Origin: an uncultured Clostridia bacterium
GTDB lineage: Bacteria; Bacillota; Clostridia; Christensenellales; Borkfalkiaceae
Direction of reading: 5' to 3'
NCBI GenBank assembly: GCA_947626935.1
Contig: CANQUD010000002.1
Location: forward strand, 17,587-81,586
Length of the DNA stretch: 64,000 nucleotides
Shown here: positions 10,431 to 25,545 of the stretch, in pieces
How positions within the stretch are numbered: the first letter of the stretch is position 1
How the letters are laid out: every line of letters begins with the position of its first letter
Made by a program: the position numbers and the translations under genes
The notes under the pieces: generated by a model
Databases searched by the model: none
What the model saw: only the letters and a program-made list of their open reading frames with translations
Told to the model about the DNA's origin: nothing

Positions 10431-11144
10431 ATGCGGATCAATAAATTTCTTGCCGAACAGGGCGTCGCCTCGAGGAGAGGCGCCGACGGGATCATCGCCG
10501 AGGGAAGGGTGACGATCAACGGAAAAACGGCAAAGGCGGGGGACGATGTCTCTCCGTCCGACGAGGTCGCCCTCGACGGGAAGCTGCTTTCCCACAAAGT
10601 CAAGTTCGAATATTATCTTCTCAACAAACCGAAGGGCTTTGTCTGTACGGTGAGCGACGAAAAGACCGAGCGACCCAGAAAGACGGTCATGGACCTTCTG
10701 CCCGCGGGCGCGGGAAAGGTTTTCCCCGTCGGAAGGCTCGACTACAATACGGAAGGACTTTTGATCCTGACCAATGACGGGAGCCTTGCCTACCGTTTGA
10801 CGGCGCCGCAGAACGAGATCCCAAAGACCTATCTCGTGAAGGTCAACGGTTCCGTCACGTCCGCCCAGCTCAATCGGCTTCGGGAAGGTGTGGAGATCGA
10901 AAAGGGGATCGTCACGAAGAAGTGCCGCGTCAACGTCATCGAGACAGACAAGGCTTACACCAAGCTCCATGTCACGCTGACAGAGGGGAAGAACAGGGAG
11001 ATCCGCCGCATGTTTGAAGCCGTCGGAAAGCCCGTTGAATTTCTGAAGCGGATCAGACTCGGGGATCTGACACTGTCGGGTCTCGACCGCGGCGCATGCC
11101 GCAGTCTCTCCCCCGAAGAGGTATTCTATTTGAAAAATCTGTAA
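10431..11144 (+). CDS. rluB: 23S rRNA pseudouridine synthase RluB family
   Basis: A RsuA/RluB-type enzyme that isomerises a uridine in large-subunit rRNA. The 237-residue product has an N-terminal S4 RNA-binding domain (MRINKFLAEQGVASRR) and the catalytic motif GRLDYNTEG with the nucleophilic Asp, plus the family segment EGKNREIRRM. Adjacency to scpB is common in Firmicutes. Last plus-strand gene before the orientation switch. Confidence 0.93.
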   Translation: MRINKFLAEQGVASRRGADGIIAEGRVTINGKTAKAGDDVSPSDEVALDGKLLSHKVKFEYYLLNKPKGFVCTVSDEKTERPRKTVMDLLPAGAGKVFPVGRLDYNTEGLLILTNDGSLAYRLTAPQNEIPKTYLVKVNGSVTSAQLNRLREGVEIEKGIVTKKCRVNVIETDKAYTKLHVTLTEGKNREIRRMFEAVGKPVEFLKRIRLGDLTLSGLDRGACRSLSPEEVFYLKNL

Positions 11145-11839: not shown

Positions 11840-12448
11840 TTACCGAAAACTCCGCATGAGTCCGATCACTTTTCCCAAGATGCGGACGCTCTCCTGATTT
11901 TCGGGAATGATGTCCTCCATGGTGCTGTTTTCGGGGTGAAGCACGATCTTTCCGTCCCGCTTGTAGAAGCGCTTCACCGTCGCGCCGTCCATCGTACCGT
12001 CATCAAACATTGCAATGACGATCTCGCCGTTTTCGGCATTTTCCTGACGCTTGACGATGATCTTGTCGCCGTCATAGATGCCCGCGTCGATCATCGATTC
12101 CCCGTGCACGCGGAGAAGGAAGAGGTCGTCGCCCTTGAATTCCGCTTCGGGCAGGGAATAATAGCCCTCGTTATTTTCCACGGCAAGAATGGGCTGACCT
12201 GCATTTACGACGCCAAGGAGAGGCGCCCGAACGACGGAACTTCCGCGCACGACGACGGAACGGTTCTTCTTACTCGACTTGTCGAGATAGCCTTGATCGC
12301 GCAGGCGGTTGATATAATCGTACGCCGTCGCGGTCGATTTGATGTTCAAAGCGGCGCAAATGTCGCGGACAGAGGGGGGGAAGCCGTTATCGTCATTGTA
12401 TCGGCGGATATATTCAAAGACTTCCATCAATTTGTCGTGCTTGATCAT
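11840..12448 (-). CDS. lexA: SOS repressor LexA
   Basis: LexA represses DNA-damage genes and cleaves itself when RecA is active. The 202-residue product has a winged helix (about 1-65, with FPPSVRDICAALNIKS), a scissile Ala83-Gly84 bond, the catalytic Ser118 (GESM) and Lys159 (ATVK). The ATG is preceded by AGAGGTG. Its promoter (12467-12495) carries a LexA box over the -35 element, which indicates autoregulation. Confidence 0.96.
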   Translation of the reverse strand: MIKHDKLMEVFEYIRRYNDDNGFPPSVRDICAALNIKSTATAYDYINRLRDQGYLDKSSKKNRSVVVRGSSVVRAPLLGVVNAGQPILAVENNEGYYSLPEAEFKGDDLFLLRVHGESMIDAGIYDGDKIIVKRQENAENGEIVIAMFDDGTMDGATVKRFYKRDGKIVLHPENSTMEDIIPENQESVRILGKVIGLMRSFR

Positions 12449-12560: not shown

Positions 12561-12746
12561 ATGGAAACAAAAATGTGTGTGCTGGACGATGAAAAGGAGT
12601 GCGACGGCTGCATGGAGTGCATGGTGTGCGACCTCGACCCGTCCAAGCCCTGTGACAACTGCGGAAAGTGCCTCGACATCAAAGACTACGCGACGATCAA
12701 GATCGACAAGATCATCATGGACCCGAATTACGGAAAAAAGGAGTGA
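12561..12746 (+). CDS. 61-residue Cys-rich protein, possible metal-binding
   Basis: A small protein with seven clustered cysteines in CDGCMECMVC and CDNCGKC, which suggests one Zn or Fe-S centre. Similar short proteins sit between lexA and hflX in clostridia; no function is established to my knowledge. There is no ribosome site before the ATG, and the promoter position implies a leaderless mRNA. The 3' end overlaps the convergent hflX gene by 32 bp. Confidence 0.7.
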   Translation: METKMCVLDDEKECDGCMECMVCDLDPSKPCDNCGKCLDIKDYATIKIDKIIMDPNYGKKE

Positions 12747-13932
12747 ATTTTTCGGCGTAGATCGACGGGATGACGACCTTGACCTCTGCGCCGCCGTCCG
12801 TATAGGTAACGTTTTGTTCTGTACAATAGGATCGTATGGCGCTGTATTGCGCCATTTTTTCGTATGGGATCGTCAATGTCGCCAATACGAAATTGTCTCT
12901 CAACTTCTCAAAGATGCGCCGTTTGAGTGTCTCAAGCCCTAAATCGTTCGCCGCGGAAATGCAGACCGCATCCTTGGGGAAGGCTTCCGTGCTTTCGACA
13001 AGGTCGCATTTGTTCATGACGACGAGATAGGGGGCGGAGAAACCCATTTCTTCCAGCGTAGAGAGGGTCGTCTGAAGCTGCATTTCGTAGGCTCCGCTCC
13101 CGTCGCAGACGATGAGCGCAAGGTCGCAGTTCATGGCGCTCTCGAGCGTCGATTTGAAGGCTTCGATGAGATGATGGGGGAGACTCTGCAAAAAACCGAC
13201 GGTATCGACGAGCAAAAAGGGGACACTTTCGATCTCGAATCCCCTTGCCGTGGGATCGAGTGTCGCAAAGAGAGCGTTCTTGACGAACACATCGGCGCCC
13301 GTCAGATGGTTCAAGAGGGTAGACTTTCCCGTATTCGTATAACCGACGAGCGCGATCGTCATGACACGGTCCTTTTTTCTGCGCTCGACCTGCATCGCAC
13401 GGCGTTTTTCCGTCTCCTTGAGCTTCTCTTCGAGGGAACGGATGCGGTTCCTGATGTGCCGTCTGTCCGTTTCGAGCTTTGTTTCCCCGGGACCGCGCGT
13501 CCCGATCCCGCCTCCCAGTCTTGAAAGCGCTTCGCCCTTGCCTTTGAGGCGGGGATACAGATACTTGAGCTGGGCAAGTTCGACCTGGATCTTTCCCTCG
13601 CTGCTCTCGGCGCGGAGAGCAAAGATGTCGAGGATGAGCGTCGTTCTGTCGATGACTTTCCTGTCGTCGAGCGCCTTTGAAATGTTGAGCGTTTGGGAAG
13701 GGGAGAGTTCCCCGTTGAAGAGCACGGTGACGTCCAAGCCATCGAGCCTTTCTTTGAGTTCCGCAAGCTTTCCTTCGCCGATATAGGTGGCGGGATTGAT
13801 CTCCCGTATGGTCTGATAGATCGTCCCCGCGTATTCCGCGCCCGCGCTCTCGATCAACGAGACGATCTCCTCGTGAAGGACCTTTGTTCTGTCGTCCTCG
13901 ACGGGTTGAATGACATAGATGGTTTCGCTCAA
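12715..13932 (-). CDS. hflX: ribosome-associated GTPase HflX
   Basis: HflX binds the 50S subunit and splits or rescues stalled ribosomes. The 405-residue product has the N-terminal HflX domain with GGGIGTRGPGETKLE, then a G domain with GYTNTGKS (G1), DTVGF (G3) and NKCD (G4). The start is TTG at 13932, supported by GAGGAGG seven bases before it; it overlaps the xer stop codon (TTGA), so hflX is translationally coupled to the recombinase gene. Confidence 0.95.
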   Translation of the reverse strand: MSETIYVIQPVEDDRTKVLHEEIVSLIESAGAEYAGTIYQTIREINPATYIGEGKLAELKERLDGLDVTVLFNGELSPSQTLNISKALDDRKVIDRTTLILDIFALRAESSEGKIQVELAQLKYLYPRLKGKGEALSRLGGGIGTRGPGETKLETDRRHIRNRIRSLEEKLKETEKRRAMQVERRKKDRVMTIALVGYTNTGKSTLLNHLTGADVFVKNALFATLDPTARGFEIESVPFLLVDTVGFLQSLPHHLIEAFKSTLESAMNCDLALIVCDGSGAYEMQLQTTLSTLEEMGFSAPYLVVMNKCDLVESTEAFPKDAVCISAANDLGLETLKRRIFEKLRDNFVLATLTIPYEKMAQYSAIRSYCTEQNVTYTDGGAEVKVVIPSIYAEKFTPFFRNSGP

Positions 13933-14996
13933 TCGTCATCCTCCTCTGAGCGGTGCAGCTTGACCTTTCCCGCGACGGAACGGCGGTTGTCCTCGGTGAT
14001 CGCAGCATAGTGCTTCCGCGTCGTATTGACGTCCTTGTGCCCGAGAACGTCCGCTACGATATAGATATCCCTTGTTTCATGGTAGAGCGCCGTACCGTAG
14101 GTGGAACGGAGCTTATGGGGGGTGATCTTCTTGAGCGGCGTCACGATCTTGGCATATTTTTTTACGAGATTTTCGACTGCACGGACGGTGATCCGCTTGT
14201 ATTGCATGGAAAGAAAGAGGGGAGCGGGGGATTCTTTCGGGATCTTCGGGTCTCCTTTTTTCTGTTCCATATACGCCGCAAGCGCATCGGCAACTTCGTC
14301 CGAGAAGTACAAAATTGCCTGATTTCCGCCTTTCCGCGTGACGATAAAGGAATTGTTGTCAAAATTGATGCTCTCGTTGTTGAGTCCGACAAGCTCGGAA
14401 ATACGGATGCCCGTACCCAAAAAGAGGGTCAGAATGGCAGTATCGCGGACCATCGTTCTGTCGTGATAGGCGATCGCATGGTGGGAAAGCCCGTTTCCGA
14501 ACTCTGCAGTATTCAACATCTCATCGATCTCATTGTCGTCGAGGCGGATGATCTCCTTGTCATGAAGTTTGGGAGTGGGGACCTTCGCCGTATTGTTGAC
14601 GCCGATGAGACCTTTGTTGAAGAAATATTTGAAGAGGGAACGGACGGTCGAAAGCTTGCGGGCTTTGGCGCGTTCGTCACAGGAGAGACTCTTGTCTCCG
14701 AATGTATAATGGGAGAGGTAGGAAAGAAAGATCTCGATGTCGGTATCCGTGACCTGTTCGAGATCTTCAAGCGTAATTTCCTTGGGAGCTTTGCTCTTGA
14801 ATCTGCGCTTGGAGAGAAAATCGTAAAAGATCCTGAGGTCGTAGGCGTAATTGAGGCGGGTGAGGGTGCTGGTGCGTGTCTCAACGCCGCGGAAAAAATC
14901 CTCGCAGTAATCGGGAAGCTCCTCAAGAAGGGCATCGATCCGCTCGAGGTTATGAAGATTTCGCTCTTGATAGTAGTTGACGCTCTTTTTTGCCAT
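13929..14996 (-). CDS. xerS: tyrosine recombinase, XerS-like
   Basis: A phage-integrase-fold recombinase of 355 residues with the full catalytic set: Arg198 (GTGIR), Lys222, His294 and Arg297 (HKLR), His320 (LGH) and Tyr330. The N-terminal region ELPDYCEDFF with a following YDLRIFYDFL segment recalls streptococcal XerS rather than XerC/XerD. XerS enzymes act alone to resolve chromosome dimers at a dif site beside their gene, and a matching 32-bp site lies 63 bp upstream here. The true start is ATG 14996: the promoter (15003-15031) ends six bases before it, so the mRNA is leaderless. The XerS assignment is moderate; a XerD-like annotation is the alternative. Confidence 0.85.
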   Translation of the reverse strand: MAKKSVNYYQERNLHNLERIDALLEELPDYCEDFFRGVETRTSTLTRLNYAYDLRIFYDFLSKRRFKSKAPKEITLEDLEQVTDTDIEIFLSYLSHYTFGDKSLSCDERAKARKLSTVRSLFKYFFNKGLIGVNNTAKVPTPKLHDKEIIRLDDNEIDEMLNTAEFGNGLSHHAIAYHDRTMVRDTAILTLFLGTGIRISELVGLNNESINFDNNSFIVTRKGGNQAILYFSDEVADALAAYMEQKKGDPKIPKESPAPLFLSMQYKRITVRAVENLVKKYAKIVTPLKKITPHKLRSTYGTALYHETRDIYIVADVLGHKDVNTTRKHYAAITEDNRRSVAGKVKLHRSEEDDD

Positions 14997-15002
14997 GTCA
15001 GA

Positions 15003-15031
15003 ATTATACCTCAAAGGGTGGGAAATGTCAA
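15003..15031 (-). promoter_or_regulatory. xer-hflX promoter
   Basis: Perfect TTGACA (15031-15026) and TATAAT (15008-15003) on the minus strand, spacer 17 bp, with only six bases to the ATG. Confidence 0.88.
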
Positions 15032-15058
15032 CGGAATGCGGTGGGTGACACACAGGGA

Positions 15059-15090
15059 ACTATTCGCAAAACACCGATTTTACGAATAGT
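15059..15090. other. dif-like recombination site beside the recombinase gene
   Basis: Arms ACTATTCGCAAAA (15059-15071) and TTTTACGAATAGT (15078-15090) are inverted repeats (12 of 13 pairs) around the 6-bp core CACCGA. Two 11-bp-plus arms around 6 bp is the architecture of Xer target sites, and AAAA-core-TTTT recalls the streptococcal XerS site. It lies 28 bp upstream of the recombinase -35. Confidence 0.65.
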
Positions 15091-15383
15091 AAGAGGGCGG
15101 AAATTGGGAATTTAGCCTAAAATTACGGACTTCATCCGTATTTTTCGGAATTTTCGGATAAAATGTTCATTTGAATATGTACAGGAAATTTTGAGAAAAT
15201 TCCTAAAATTTTGTCCGAACGTTTTATGGAATTTTTCCGAAAACTCGGTACGATCCTTTCGGAAAAATGTATTTCTATCCCAAAAATGTCTGCACAATGA
15301 CATGATCCCGAAGCGTTTTTTCGGCAATTTTTCCCCGAAAATCACCGTTTTGCCTCTGAAATTCCCTCTGAAAAGTCCTTAAT
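15091..15383. other. AT-rich intergenic region rich in inverted repeats, no gene seen
   Basis: No reading frame with coding character. It contains several dyads built on TTTTCGG/CCGAAAA: a perfect 12-bp inverted repeat ATTTTTCCGAAA (15231-15242) and TTTCGGAAAAAT (15257-15268) with 14 bp between, and AGGAAATTTT/AAAATTCCT at 15183-15204. These may be accessory protein sites beside the dif-like sequence; that is inference. Confidence 0.5.
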
Positions 15384-15418
15384 ACTATGTCAGACATAGT
15401 TATTATGTCAGACATAGT
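15384..15418. repeat. copy 2 of the palindrome family, double
   Basis: The 17-bp palindrome ACTATGTCAGACATAGT (15384-15400) and a second TATGTCAGACATA (15404-15416), centres 18 bp apart. The amylase stop codon and last codons (TAC TAT GTC TGA) lie inside the second palindrome. Confidence 0.85.
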
Positions 15419-17240
15419 ATTGGGTCAAGATCCCGTAAGAACAGGCTGAAATGGAGATCTTGCCGTCAAAAATCTTTTCGGAGAGCAGTTCTTTCCATTC
15501 TCCCGCAAATTTGAGATTGTATTCGCACGAACTGCGGTTCACATAGACGACCACGCTTTTTTGACCGATCTTTCTTTGATAGACAATGCAGCCTGTATCT
15601 GCGAAAATTTCCCGATAGCTCCCCTCTGCAAAAATTTCTCTCAATGTTCCCGTACGGAGCTTGCCGAGTTTTTGGTAGAATCCGTGCAGTTCGCCGTCGA
15701 TATTGTCCCAAGGGAAACATCTGCGGCAGAACGGGTCCTGATATCCTTCCATACCCGCTTCGTCGCCGTAAAAGACGCACGGGACTCCCGGCAAAGTAAA
15801 CTGCAAAACGGCAGCCATCTTCAAAAGTTCCTTGGCTTTTTCGCGCTCTTCGTTGCTCATCCGAAGGACCGCCATTTTCTCTTTATCGTCGCATTCCTCG
15901 CCGCCGAACACCGTCAGAATTCTCGGGGTATCGTGGGAGCCGAGGATGTTCATGAGACAATCGAGCGTCTGTTTCGGATAATTGTCGAGGAGCATGGCGA
16001 TCGTCTCGCGCAGGAGATAGGTCATTCCCGTCCGTACAAAGTTGATGATGCCGTCCTTCAGAGGATAATTCATCACGCTGTCAAGCTCATATCCCTGCAA
16101 ATATTCCCGTCTGACGTCGTAGGAGATCTTGTTGGAAGCGTCCTCCCAAACTTCTCCGATCAAAATTGCATCGGGATCTTCGCTCTTGACGGTCTCCCGC
16201 AGCTTTTTCAGGAAGAAGTCGGGCAATTCATCGGCAACATCGAGCCGATATCCGCCGATCCCGTGACGGAGCCAATGTTTGAGAACGCCGTTTTCGCCCA
16301 TGATATACTCTTGATAGGAAGGTGATGCCTCGTTGACCTCGGGCAAGATCAGGATCCCCCACCAACATTCATAGAGCATGGGAAACTCTTTGAACGTATA
16401 CCAATCGGCATAGGGAGACTCTTTGGACTGGTAGGCGCCGAGCGTGGGATATTTCCCATATTTGTTGAAATACTTGCTGTCGTCGCCCGTGTGATTGAAA
16501 ACACCGTCCAAAATGATGCGGATCCCGTCATTTTCGGCTTCTTTGACGAGGCGGTCGAACTCTTCTTCCGTCCCGAGCAGGGGATCGATCTTCATGTAAT
16601 CGCCCGTGTCATAGCGATGATTGGAGAATGCCTCAAAGATCGGATTGAAATAGATGACCGTGACGCCGAGGTCTTTGAGGTACTTAAGTTTTTCTCTGAC
16701 GCCGTTCAAATTCCCGCCGAAAAAGTCATTGTTGAGGATCTTTCCCATCTCATTCGGGCGGAAGGACGGCATTCCGCCCCAGTCGGTGCGGAGATATCTC
16801 CCTTCGGCAAGCGGATGATCTCCTTCGCCCTTGAAAAATCTGTCGGGAAAGATCTGGTACATCACGCCGCCCTTGAACCAATCGGGCGTCGTGTAATCTT
16901 CGTCAAAGACGGTGATCTGCCAATCATTTTTGCCGTCGAATGCGCCTCTGCGCAGTTTTCCGCACATGAACCGTGCGCCGTCCAGTTCAAAATGATAAAA
17001 ATACAGTCCCGTCGCGTGAAAGCAAAGGCGGAGCGAGAAACAATTTTCTTCCCGTTCCATGGGGAAAAACTTTGCTTCTTCGCCGTTTTTCCATAAAACC
17101 AGCGTACAAGTTTGAGCGGAGAATGAAAATTCTCCGCCTTCACGATTCGTATAGAGATGAAGCGAAAGCTCGCTGCTGCGCGGGATCGCCCCGAGAACGC
17201 TCTTGCAAGCGCTGTCAAGTGGATCGTAGTAGAAACTCAT
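15408..17240 (-). CDS. GH13 alpha-amylase/neopullulanase-type glycosidase
   Basis: A glycoside hydrolase family 13 enzyme of 610 residues, without signal peptide, so intracellular. An N-terminal beta domain (about 1-115) precedes the TIM barrel with the four conserved regions: DGVFNH, GYRLDVADE (nucleophile Asp), GEVWED (acid/base Glu) and LGSHDT (Asp). As the last gene of the glycogen operon, 9 bp after glgP, it probably hydrolyses or transfers short maltodextrins released from glycogen; exact specificity is not visible. Its C-terminal codons are formed by the palindrome repeat. Confidence 0.9.
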   Translation of the reverse strand: MSFYYDPLDSACKSVLGAIPRSSELSLHLYTNREGGEFSFSAQTCTLVLWKNGEEAKFFPMEREENCFSLRLCFHATGLYFYHFELDGARFMCGKLRRGAFDGKNDWQITVFDEDYTTPDWFKGGVMYQIFPDRFFKGEGDHPLAEGRYLRTDWGGMPSFRPNEMGKILNNDFFGGNLNGVREKLKYLKDLGVTVIYFNPIFEAFSNHRYDTGDYMKIDPLLGTEEEFDRLVKEAENDGIRIILDGVFNHTGDDSKYFNKYGKYPTLGAYQSKESPYADWYTFKEFPMLYECWWGILILPEVNEASPSYQEYIMGENGVLKHWLRHGIGGYRLDVADELPDFFLKKLRETVKSEDPDAILIGEVWEDASNKISYDVRREYLQGYELDSVMNYPLKDGIINFVRTGMTYLLRETIAMLLDNYPKQTLDCLMNILGSHDTPRILTVFGGEECDDKEKMAVLRMSNEEREKAKELLKMAAVLQFTLPGVPCVFYGDEAGMEGYQDPFCRRCFPWDNIDGELHGFYQKLGKLRTGTLREIFAEGSYREIFADTGCIVYQRKIGQKSVVVYVNRSSCEYNLKFAGEWKELLSEKIFDGKISISACSYGILTQYYV

Positions 17241-19707: not shown

Positions 19708-21255
19708 TTATCTTAAGAGAGCGAGATACATTTCCTCATAATAATGTGCCGAGGATGCCCAGCTGAAGTCCGTCGTCATTGCCTTGTGAACGAGTTCTTT
19801 CCAGACTTCGCGGTTGCGGTAGACCCCGATCGCCTCATTGATGACATAGAGCATGTCATACGCGTTGTAGTCGTGGAAGGTGAAGCCGTTCCCGCCTGCG
19901 CCGAAGGGTGTGATGCTGTCCCTCAACCCCCCCGTTTCGCGCACGATCGCGACCGTGCCGTAGCGGGAAGCGATCATCTGCGAGAGTCCGCAGGGTTCGC
20001 TCTTGGAAGGCATCAGGAAGAGATCGGCGCCCGAATAGATCTTCCTCGAAAGATCGGAATTGAAGGAAATGACGGAGACGACTTTCCCGGGGTACCTTCT
20101 CGCAAGGTCGGAAAAATATGTCTCGTAGGAAGAATCGCCCGTGCCGAGCAGGATGAACTGCATATCCTGCCGAAGCGCCTGCTCGATGACCTCTCTGACG
20201 AGATCGAGTCCCTTGTGGGTGACGAGACGGGTGATCATGGCAAGAATGGGCGTGTCGGGCTTGACGGGAAGGTTGAGCATGCGCTGCAGTTCTTCCTTGC
20301 AGACGGCTTTCCCGTCCATTCGGTCCGCGCTGTAGTTTTCAAAGAGCGAAACGTCGGTCGCAGGGTCGTAATAGTCGGGATCGATGCCGTTCAGGATGCC
20401 GCGGAGCTTGAATTCGTTCCTGCGGATGATCGGATCGAGTCCGTGCGAATAGTACGGATCCTTGATCTCCTGCGCGTAGGTGGGAGAAACGGTCGAGAAG
20501 CATTCGCAGCACTCGATCGCCCCCTTCATGAGATTGATGCAGCGGTCATATTCCACAAGATTCTGGAAATGATAGGAGATCCCGAAGAGGTCCTCGAGGA
20601 TATCGAGGGAATATTTTCCCTGATACTCTATATTATGAATGGTAAAGACCGCGCGGATGAACTGGTACTCTGGACGGAAACAGTAGATCGTCTTGAGATA
20701 CAGCGCCGCAAGCGCAGCCTGCCAGTCATGGCAATGCATCACGTCGGGATAGAAACCGATGAAGTTCATCGTCTCCATGACGCCGCGGCAGAAGAACGCG
20801 AACCGTTCGCCGTCGTCATAGTAGCCATAGCAGCCGGGACGCTTGAAATAGTACTCATTGTCGAGGAAATAGAAGGTGACGTTGTCCTTTTTATACTCGA
20901 AAATGCCGCAGTACTGATTTCTCCAAGAGAGCGCGACGTAGGTGTTTCCGAGGAATTTGAAGTCCTTTCTGAAATCTTTTTTGATATCCTGATAGAGCGG
21001 GACCATGACGCGGACGTCATATTTATCCTCTCTTGCAAGCGCTTTGGAAAGAGACCCGATGACTTCGGCAAGTCCCCCCGTCGCGATGAACGGCGACGCT
21101 TCCGATGCGACAAACAAGATCTTTTTCTTCGCCTCCGCCGTCACTTCCGCAGGTTCCGCCCTGATCGGCTCCTCGGCTTTCCCCAAAACTTCCACATCGG
21201 GAAGATCGGGCGTCCGCTCCTTCTTTGTTCCCCTCTTTTTCGTTGTTTCACTCAT
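19708..21255 (-). CDS. glgA: glycogen synthase with charged N-terminal extension
   Basis: GlgA (GT5) transfers glucose from ADP-glucose to growing alpha-1,4 chains. The catalytic core starts at KILFVASEASPFIATGGLAEV (about residue 47), with the KTGGL-type loop written as ATGGL, and ends with the nucleotide-binding PSKSEPCGLSQM and GGLRDSI segments. ATG 21255 is preceded by AAGGGGGAGA. The first 45 residues form a Lys/Glu/Pro-rich extension (KKRGTKKERTPDLPDVEV) absent from short GlgA proteins. The product has 515 residues. Confidence 0.96.
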   Translation of the reverse strand: MSETTKKRGTKKERTPDLPDVEVLGKAEEPIRAEPAEVTAEAKKKILFVASEASPFIATGGLAEVIGSLSKALAREDKYDVRVMVPLYQDIKKDFRKDFKFLGNTYVALSWRNQYCGIFEYKKDNVTFYFLDNEYYFKRPGCYGYYDDGERFAFFCRGVMETMNFIGFYPDVMHCHDWQAALAALYLKTIYCFRPEYQFIRAVFTIHNIEYQGKYSLDILEDLFGISYHFQNLVEYDRCINLMKGAIECCECFSTVSPTYAQEIKDPYYSHGLDPIIRRNEFKLRGILNGIDPDYYDPATDVSLFENYSADRMDGKAVCKEELQRMLNLPVKPDTPILAMITRLVTHKGLDLVREVIEQALRQDMQFILLGTGDSSYETYFSDLARRYPGKVVSVISFNSDLSRKIYSGADLFLMPSKSEPCGLSQMIASRYGTVAIVRETGGLRDSITPFGAGGNGFTFHDYNAYDMLYVINEAIGVYRNREVWKELVHKAMTTDFSWASSAHYYEEMYLALLR

Positions 21256-23619: not shown

Positions 23620-25545
23620 CTACTTTGTTTCCGCCTTCTTTTTGGATACGGGCGGTTCATAGACGAGATAGAGCGTCGTCAGCTTCGGCATCGGGATCTC
23701 GAGCGAATACTGCTTGCCGTGGCTGGGCTTCTTGACGGCAGAAAAGCTCTTTTTTGTCAGTTTCCCCTCTCCGCCGTATTTTTTCTCGTCCGAATTGAAA
23801 ATTATCTTATATTTGCCCCGCTTGTTGACGCCGAGCAAGTAGTCATCCGCATCGATCCCCGAATAGGACGTCAGGCAGATCACCTCGTTTCCCGCCTTAT
23901 CTTTGCGGATGAAGCTCACGATGTTCCTGTCCGCATCGTCGGGAGCGAGCCATTCGAACCCGTCCCAGCTGTCCTCGATCTCATAGAAAGCGGGCGTGTC
24001 CCGATAGAAATGATTGAGAGAGCGCACATATTCGGAGAGCTTCCCATGCATCTCATAGGTGTCGCGGAGGAAGAATTCGATCCCCTCTTTATAGTTCCAT
24101 TCCTTGAACTGTCCGATCTCGTAGCCCATGAAATTGAGCTTCTTCCCGGGGTGAGCCGCCATGTAGCCGAGGAACGCGCGGACGCCCGCAAACTTCTCCT
24201 CGTATGTCCCCGGCATCTTGTTGATGAGGGAACATTTCCCGTGCACGACTTCGTCATGCGAAATGGGGAGAATGTAGTTCTCGGAGAAGGCGTACATCAT
24301 CGAGAAAGTCAATTTGTTGTGGTTGTTCATGCGGAAATAGGGATTGAGACAGAGATAGGAGAGCATGTCGTTCATCCAACCCATGTTCCACTTGAAATTG
24401 AATCCGAGACCGCCCACCGAACCGGGCTTTGTCACAAGCCCCCACGCCGTGCTCTCCTCCGCGATCATCATCGCGTACGGGAAACGCATGAAAACGGCTT
24501 CGTTCAAACGGCGAAGGAAGGCGATCGCCTCGAGATTCTTGTTCTCGCCGTAGATGTTGGGGACCCATTCCCCCGGGCGCTTGTCATAATCGAGATAGAG
24601 CATGGAAGCGACGGCGTCCACCCGCAGCCCGTCAACATGGAATTTGTCGAAGAAGAAGCACGCGCCCGAGATGAGGAAGGAAAGGACTTCTTCCCTGCCG
24701 TAGTCGAAGCGGCGGGTCCCCCAGCTCTTGTGTTCCATCCTGTCCCACTGGCTGCTTTCATAGAGGGGCTGACCGTCAAACTCATAAAGTCCGTGCGCGT
24801 CCTTGGGGAAATGTGCGGGGACCCAGTCGACGATGACGCCGATCCCCTCTTTGTGGAAGCAGTCAACGAGATACATGAAATCATGGGGCGTCCCGAGGCG
24901 GGATGTCACCGCAAAGTATCCCGTTACCTGATATCCCCACGAGCCGTCAAAGGGAAATTCGGTGACAGGCATGAATTCGACGTGCGTATAGCCCATCTCC
25001 TTGACATACGGGACAAGCTCTCTCGCAAGATCGCGATAGGAAAGATAATTTCCGTCGTCATATTTTTTCCACGAAAGCAGGTTGACCTCATAGATGTTGA
25101 CGGGAGACGCAAAGATGTTTTTTTTCTTGATGGAATCAAGATAGGCTCCGTCGCTCCACTTGTACCCTTCGAGATCATAGAGTTTGGAAGCGGTCTGTGG
25201 TGCCGTCTCCGTATGAAAGCCGACGGGATCTGCCTTGAAGAGCTGCCGTCCGTCGGCTGCGGTAATACAATATTTATAGATGTCGTACTGCTTCAGTCCC
25301 GCGATGAACAACTCGAAAGATTCATTGTCGATCATGCGCTCCATGACGTCTGCGTCGGAATTCCATCCGTTGAAATCCCCGACAACGGACACAGAACGCG
25401 CATGCGGCGCCCAGACACGGAAGATATAGCCCTCCTTGCCGTTTTGCACCGCCTTGTGTGCGCCGTATGTTTCATAGATGCGGTCATTCTTTCCGTGGTG
25501 ATACAAATAGAGCGGGAAGTCCGTCTCTTTCATCGAATTGTCCAT
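23620..25545 (-). CDS. glgB: 1,4-alpha-glucan branching enzyme
   Basis: GlgB (GH13) makes the alpha-1,6 branches of glycogen. The 641-residue product has an N-terminal CBM48 ([20 protein letters not shown]) and a GH13 barrel with [16 protein letters not shown] (Asp), AEEST (Glu) and ISHDEVVHG, then a C-terminal beta domain. First gene of the operon, with GAGGGAA before the ATG and a promoter about 70 bp upstream. Confidence 0.96.

Follow-up and report, generated by a model that had tools for sequence, protein, structure and literature searches.

The window analysed here, a stretch of 64,000 nucleotides from the draft genome of an uncultured Clostridia bacterium, contains a lone Xer recombinase gene with a dif-like site linked to it. 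We consider it very probable that the two constitute a single-recombinase system for chromosome dimer resolution. The evidence, all of it drawn from sequence, consists of the linkage of gene and site, their conservation across the order (which we take to be the Christensenellales in the GTDB sense), the paired symmetry of the arms, the position at the replication terminus, the lack of XerC/XerD and the insertion of phages at the site.

The xer gene, its neighbours and the linked site

The features of the locus are given below with the basis for each.

11840..12448, minus strand: LexA-type repressor gene (Pfam Peptidase_S24 and LexA_DNA_bind)
12715..13932, minus strand: HflX-type GTPase gene (Pfam GTP-bdg_N, GTP-bdg_M and MMR_HSR1), sharing 4 bp with the end of xer; presumably HflX, a name we assign from the domains of the product
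13929..14996, minus strand: xer gene, encoding a single tyrosine recombinase of 355 residues from a clade sister to XerS (open reading frame, translation, Pfam, orthologue alignment, tree)
15003..15031, minus strand: predicted near-consensus xer promoter, TTGACA (15031-15026), 17-bp spacer and TATAAT (15008-15003), 6 nt from the ATG (sequence, similar layouts in relatives)
15059..15090, no strand: dif-like site ACTATTCGCAAAA-CACCGA-TTTTACGAATAGT, a 32-bp arm-core-arm inverted repeat (sequence, uniqueness, conservation, skew switch, flanking phages in relatives)
15059..15071, no strand: xer-proximal arm, presumed binding site of one recombinase subunit (matrix, paired arm changes)
15072..15077, no strand: 6-bp core, presumed strand-exchange region, varying between species (matrix, core tally)
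15078..15090, no strand: xer-distal arm, presumed binding site of the second subunit (matrix, paired arm changes)
15408..17240, minus strand: alpha-amylase family gene, beyond the site (Pfam Alpha-amylase)

Read from its ATG, xer encodes 355 residues; a longer reading from a GTG at 15053 is the alternative. The protein contains a Phage_integrase domain (PF00589; E=8e-28, 97.8 bits against a gathering score of 27.1). The putative catalytic residues, placed by alignment, are R198, K222, H294-x-x-R297, H320 and Y330; none of them varies among 16 orthologues aligned from several families. The intact reading frame, the domain and this invariance bear out an earlier, sequence-only reading of the window, which had described one tyrosine recombinase with a full catalytic set. 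The same reading had assigned the protein a XerS-like N-terminus. XerS is indeed its best NCBIfam model, but the strongest match to that model spans residues 163-345. An AlphaFold model (pLDDT 85, pTM 0.57) found XerA, XerD and XerH among its best PDB matches, with poor global superposition; as a prediction it confirms a tyrosine recombinase fold and nothing beyond. The closest orthologues, 86-89% identical, come from Clostridia MAGs of the rabbit gut ('Lapin' in the isolate names being taken as rabbit). Among named relatives, Candidatus Gallimonas, placed by NCBI in Clostridia incertae sedis, comes nearest (77% identity).

When the Xer protein was used to query its own genome (1,675,032 bp, 55 contigs, 93.7% complete), it matched itself alone. 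Three further integrase-domain genes are present, with the look, judged by eye, of Tn/phage-type integrases. Concerning the XerC/XerD equivalog models, the protein scored 158.8 and 148.7 bits, below the respective cut-offs of 335 and 329.6 bits. A XerC/XerD pair with a dif elsewhere had been named as one of three results that would overturn the proposal. No XerC or XerD was found in this genome, although with a draft that is 93.7% complete their absence from this one genome is not fully certain. Across the order, none of 247 genomes exceeded the XerD-model cut-off, while 212 had some match, in most cases a single one of about 150 bits from an open reading frame of about 355 residues. Since the cut-off is strict (4 of 14 control genomes pass it), the absence of XerC/XerD rests equally on this single-copy pattern. 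An FtsK gamma domain is present in the genome. One Xer in the genome together with one arm-core-arm site at a skew switch is the arrangement expected of a single-recombinase Xer/dif system.

The two arms of the site, ACTATTCGCAAAA and TTTTACGAATAGT, are complementary at 12 of 13 positions. Measured from its near edge, the repeat is 62 bp from the xer ATG, on the upstream side, and 27 bp from the -35 TTGACA; the earlier reading, which had noticed the 13-bp arms and 6-bp core, gave 63 and 28 bp. Of 13-6-13 repeats this good, there are three in the window, one of them at 11144, where converging genes end, and none in shuffled sequence. Because there are three, palindrome strength alone is not decisive, and we accept the site as real because it is conserved across relatives. 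A search for a second copy had been proposed as a check; in the 1.68-Mb draft genome no place other than the site matches the arm pattern with two mismatches or fewer. Exact matches to the site occur in 19 IMG/VR contigs, and the four small ones that were examined are tailed-phage-like or unclear. These matches were dropped as evidence, having no clear link to these hosts and being partly expected by chance. Exact matches to the site's arms in IMG/VR tailed-phage contigs (L278:1009-1034, L284:3132-3157 and L289:1044-1069) each lie shortly upstream of a terminase-like gene.

A tyrosine recombinase gene beside an att-like palindrome is the usual layout of an integrase, and xer could have served a decayed mobile element as its integrase, with the palindrome as that element's att site and the position at the terminus incidental. 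We regard this as extremely improbable. No mobile-element genes adjoin xer in the window, where its neighbours are hflX, lexA and the amylase gene, and about one copy of xer per genome is found across the order.

The surroundings yielded several further observations. The -10 element of the xer promoter ends 6 nt before the ATG in the window and in many relatives, which suggests a leaderless mRNA. Rfam and tRNA scans of the whole window gave no matches. For the AT-rich, gene-free 300 bp adjoining xer, previously singled out as rich in dyads, no role could be demonstrated; its conserved part is the 32-bp site. A 17-bp palindrome, ACTATGTCNGACATAGT, occurs six times in the window with at most two mismatches (4690, 15384, 15402, 46454, 57080 and 61811; 0.01 expected), two of the copies forming a tandem pair where the amylase gene ends. 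It looks like the operator of a local regulon.

Conservation across the order and position at the skew switch

Conservation of the site beside orthologous recombinase genes had been set as a test that could refute the proposal. A matching site was present upstream of xer in 117 of 123 distinct loci (counting those for which 700 bp or more of upstream sequence was available) from 16 families of the order. It lay within 1 kb of xer in 110 loci and 1.1-7.7 kb away in seven; in the remaining six no recognisable site was seen within the DNA fetched. The arms are nearly constant across the order (CTATTCGYAAAA/TTTTRCGAATAG) and the 6-bp core varies. Palindrome scans that used no consensus recovered the same arms upstream of xer orthologues, not just within the genus but also in further genera of its family and in further families of the order. 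With 88 distinct sites we built a matrix, which scored 20-51 bits at true sites and at most 0 in shuffled loci, most of the scored sites having also served to build it. Among hits of at least 15 bits in contigs of 824, 306 and 82 kb, the site stood alone. At one mirrored pair of arm positions we counted 66 T/A, 20 G/C and 12 unpaired combinations, a change of T to G in one arm usually being accompanied by A to C in the other. Such paired changes are expected if identical subunits read both arms.

Conservation of this kind could also reflect regulation, the palindrome being merely an operator at which the xer promoter is controlled, whether by the recombinase or by some other dimeric regulator. 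The site does lie near that promoter in the window, a variable spacer between fixed arms would suit an operator as well, and catalytically dead repressors with the recombinase fold exist (SroF and MrpR are among the fold matches). In addition, of 46 loci whose xer promoter could be recognised, 29 have a half-site-like sequence abutting the -35 element. These half-sites suggest autoregulation; the promoter in the window has none abutting its -35. Against an operator, the catalytic residues are invariant and the distance from site to gene ranges from tens of bases to more than 600 bp, and reaches 1.1-7.7 kb in some loci. In three of these (L051, L195 and L226), a point less favourable to dimer resolution, the site lies 1.1-2.5 kb from xer with no obvious element between, and inspection of a further locus (L170, in genome G067) for a hidden element revealed ordinary genes only. 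Taking the position and phage evidence described below into account as well, we judge the operator explanation very unlikely.

The site had been proposed as a candidate replication terminus, partly on the grounds that gene direction converges there. With codon-usage gene calls, used in place of a noisy longest-ORF strand count, nine genes run rightward and none leftward up to 11144, and three run rightward and 26 leftward at 11182-53432. These counts agree in substance with the 12/0 and 4/29 given previously. The accompanying prediction of a GC-skew switch at the site held in relatives but only approximately in the window itself, whose contig (82 kb, weak skew) has its cumulative maximum at about window position 21000, some 5.9 kb from the site. 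In a relative's contig of 823,664 bp the site, at 592,343-592,366, is about 0.3 kb from the cumulative maximum (592,040); in another of 306,472 bp, with the site at 220,430 and the maximum at 224,295, the gap is 3.9 kb. Two complete genomes from other families, their skew computed from sampled stretches, gave the same picture. In one of 2,969,292 bp, skew is positive up to the site (771,590-771,619) and negative from 773,001, with the opposite switch between 2.27 and 2.40 Mb. In one of 2,422,126 bp, with the site at 25,324-25,353, the sign changes between 20 and 32.5 kb and reverses between 1.22 and 1.32 Mb. In both genomes roughly half the chromosome separates the two switches, the site being opposite the presumed origin. 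The site therefore marks the skew switch in relatives of several families, a position at odds both with an operator and, since it is common to distant families, with a decayed element.

In the dimer resolution system that we favour, four copies of the one Xer recombinase would bind the two 12-13-bp arms on two sister copies of the site and presumably cleave where the 6-bp core meets the arms. Strand exchange through a Holliday junction would then convert a dimeric chromosome into two monomers at division, with the FtsK translocase probably bringing the sites together. A site at the terminus would fit this scheme because the terminus region is segregated last.

Integrase-less phages between the site and xer

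In four relatives, an ssDNA phage element without an integrase lies exactly between the site and xer. One is a gokushovirus and three are inovirus-like.

L062:4834-9671: gokushovirus element, with a capsid protein (E=2.7e-93) and pilot and replication proteins
L048:2500-9700: inovirus-like element, with Zot (E=7.5e-5) and Rep (E=1.2e-13)
L205:1657-5023: inovirus-like element with weaker signals, Zot (E=0.003) and Rep (E=8e-15)
L201:2395-6942: inovirus-like element with weaker signals, Rep_1 (E=7e-14) and an unassigned P-loop protein

No recombinase gene was recognised among the open reading frames listed between site and xer in these four loci. In L048 and L062 the amylase gene follows beyond the site, as in the window. 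In all four the distal site is intact and a partial copy stands at the proximal edge. The copy in L048 is a 24-bp direct repeat, AACAATGATTTTGCGAATAATTTG, comprising the core and one arm; the edges in L062 and L205 carry one arm in direct and inverted copies, and that in L201 has 13 bp. All four elements thus show the features of an IMEX, namely the lack of an integrase of their own, insertion at a dif and dif-like boundaries. Phages located between site and gene and flanked by partial site copies indicate that the site apparently recombines in nature. That they share its core and arm is hard to reconcile with a mere operator, and that they use the site while carrying no recognised recombinase speaks against xer being a relic of a decayed element.

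Filamentous vibriophages are known to integrate at dif via XerC/XerD (PMC5357621). Integration of gokushoviruses in E. coli depends on XerC/XerD and leaves dif unchanged on one side and a variable, phage-derived site on the other (PMC7062461). The elements found here are likewise integrase-less ssDNA phages at a host dif, as are CTXphi-type inoviruses (PMC5357621) and enterobacterial gokushoviruses, the latter leaving one intact and one variable, phage-derived site (PMC7062461). They differ in that the known dif IMEX phages use XerC/XerD, whereas here the hosts are Clostridia with a lone Xer. Kirchberger and Ochman reported no gokushovirus prophages in sequenced genomes of non-enterobacteria (PMC7062461).

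Relationship to XerS and other Xer systems

The recombinase had been described earlier as XerS-like, and one could suppose that the gene is simply XerS and the site a difSL. XerS (NF003462) is the best NCBIfam model at 195.8 bits, a score below the curated cut-off of 267 bits. In a tree of Xer proteins (midpoint root, with two long XerS branches), the proteins of the order together with three outsiders form a clade of their own (100/99), apart from XerD. It is sister (98/91) to the XerS clade (100/98) and does not fall inside it. The likeness therefore amounts to a sister relationship and not to membership. In phmmer comparisons, XerS proteins score 80-96 bits, a range that other Xer proteins also reach. 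The XerS/difSL system has a recombinase of similar length, gene-site linkage, AAAA/TTTT inner arms and a terminus location (PMC5357621). The system of Streptococcus and Lactococcus thus shares with the present one a single recombinase of about 356 residues, a gene-adjacent site and a terminus position, besides the sister clade. On the other hand, in the difSL of about 31 bp the arms are unequal and the region between them is 11 bp long (PMC5357621), and the site described here has a 6-bp core between arms of near-perfect symmetry; the arm sequence, the clade and the order also differ. As a positive control, the highest-scoring XerS gene was found by the same site scan to have a difSL-like sequence immediately upstream. 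On balance, a plain XerS/difSL system is unlikely.

Two of the three outsiders in the clade, G551 and G740, also have a XerD above the cut-off, and in G551 a site-like sequence of 22 bits lies upstream of the clade gene. This suggests that the module may coexist with XerCD or move, and close relatives beside a normal XerD outside the order are a point in favour of xer having come from a mobile element, as transfer of the module would be possible. In family f62, members have a full XerS-scoring gene and two have a diverged paralogue of 210-220 bits as well (L301, G653:C1:3302093-3303094; L302, G408:C1:861188-862186). Two loci from two other clostridial families, L308 and L313, encode Xer proteins of 335 residues with perfect palindromes about 150 bp upstream, ACTCAACAAAA-TTAAAA-TTTTGTTGAGT and ATTAGACAAAA-TAAAAA-TTTTGTCTAAT. 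This arrangement may represent one more linked module of the xer-dif type.

XerH/difH of Helicobacter and Campylobacter also consists of a single recombinase of similar length with a site near the gene (PMC5357621), and the fold is the same; similarity is weak (phmmer E=3.5e-6), and the phylum and the site are different. XerL/dif of Legionellales, which we compared by description, shares an order-wide single recombinase, long uninterrupted inverted repeats, use by IMEX and a site near the skew maximum (PMC9765430). The logic applied above to the inserted phages also uncovered that system (PMC9765430). It belongs to Gammaproteobacteria and not Clostridia, and in L. pneumophila dif lies more than 400 kb from the gene (PMC9765430), whereas here the two are linked in nearly every genome. 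The system is best filed as a further lineage of single-recombinase Xer/dif, beside XerS, XerH, XerA and XerL. We offer a wider scenario tentatively, as one that may well not hold in full: a separate Xer lineage sister to XerS would have taken over dimer resolution at the base of the order as a mobile gene-plus-site module, regulating itself through half-sites and serving as an integration portal for filamentous phages and gokushoviruses in Gram-positive gut bacteria.

In the open-access literature searched, with most subscription journals outside its scope, no description of a lone Xer with a linked dif in this order was found. According to reviews, nearly all bacteria rely on XerC/XerD; single recombinases are listed for streptococci and lactococci, epsilonproteobacteria and archaea, and Legionellales joined these exceptions in 2022. 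This order of common gut Clostridia would extend the list. Its minimal cassette of gene plus site, with arms of near-perfect symmetry, is suited to asking how a symmetric site orders cleavage and how FtsK controls one recombinase as opposed to two. In draft genomes of the order the site would also be an easy way of locating the replication terminus, and it reveals where filamentous phages and gokushoviruses without an integrase insert in these mostly uncultured hosts.
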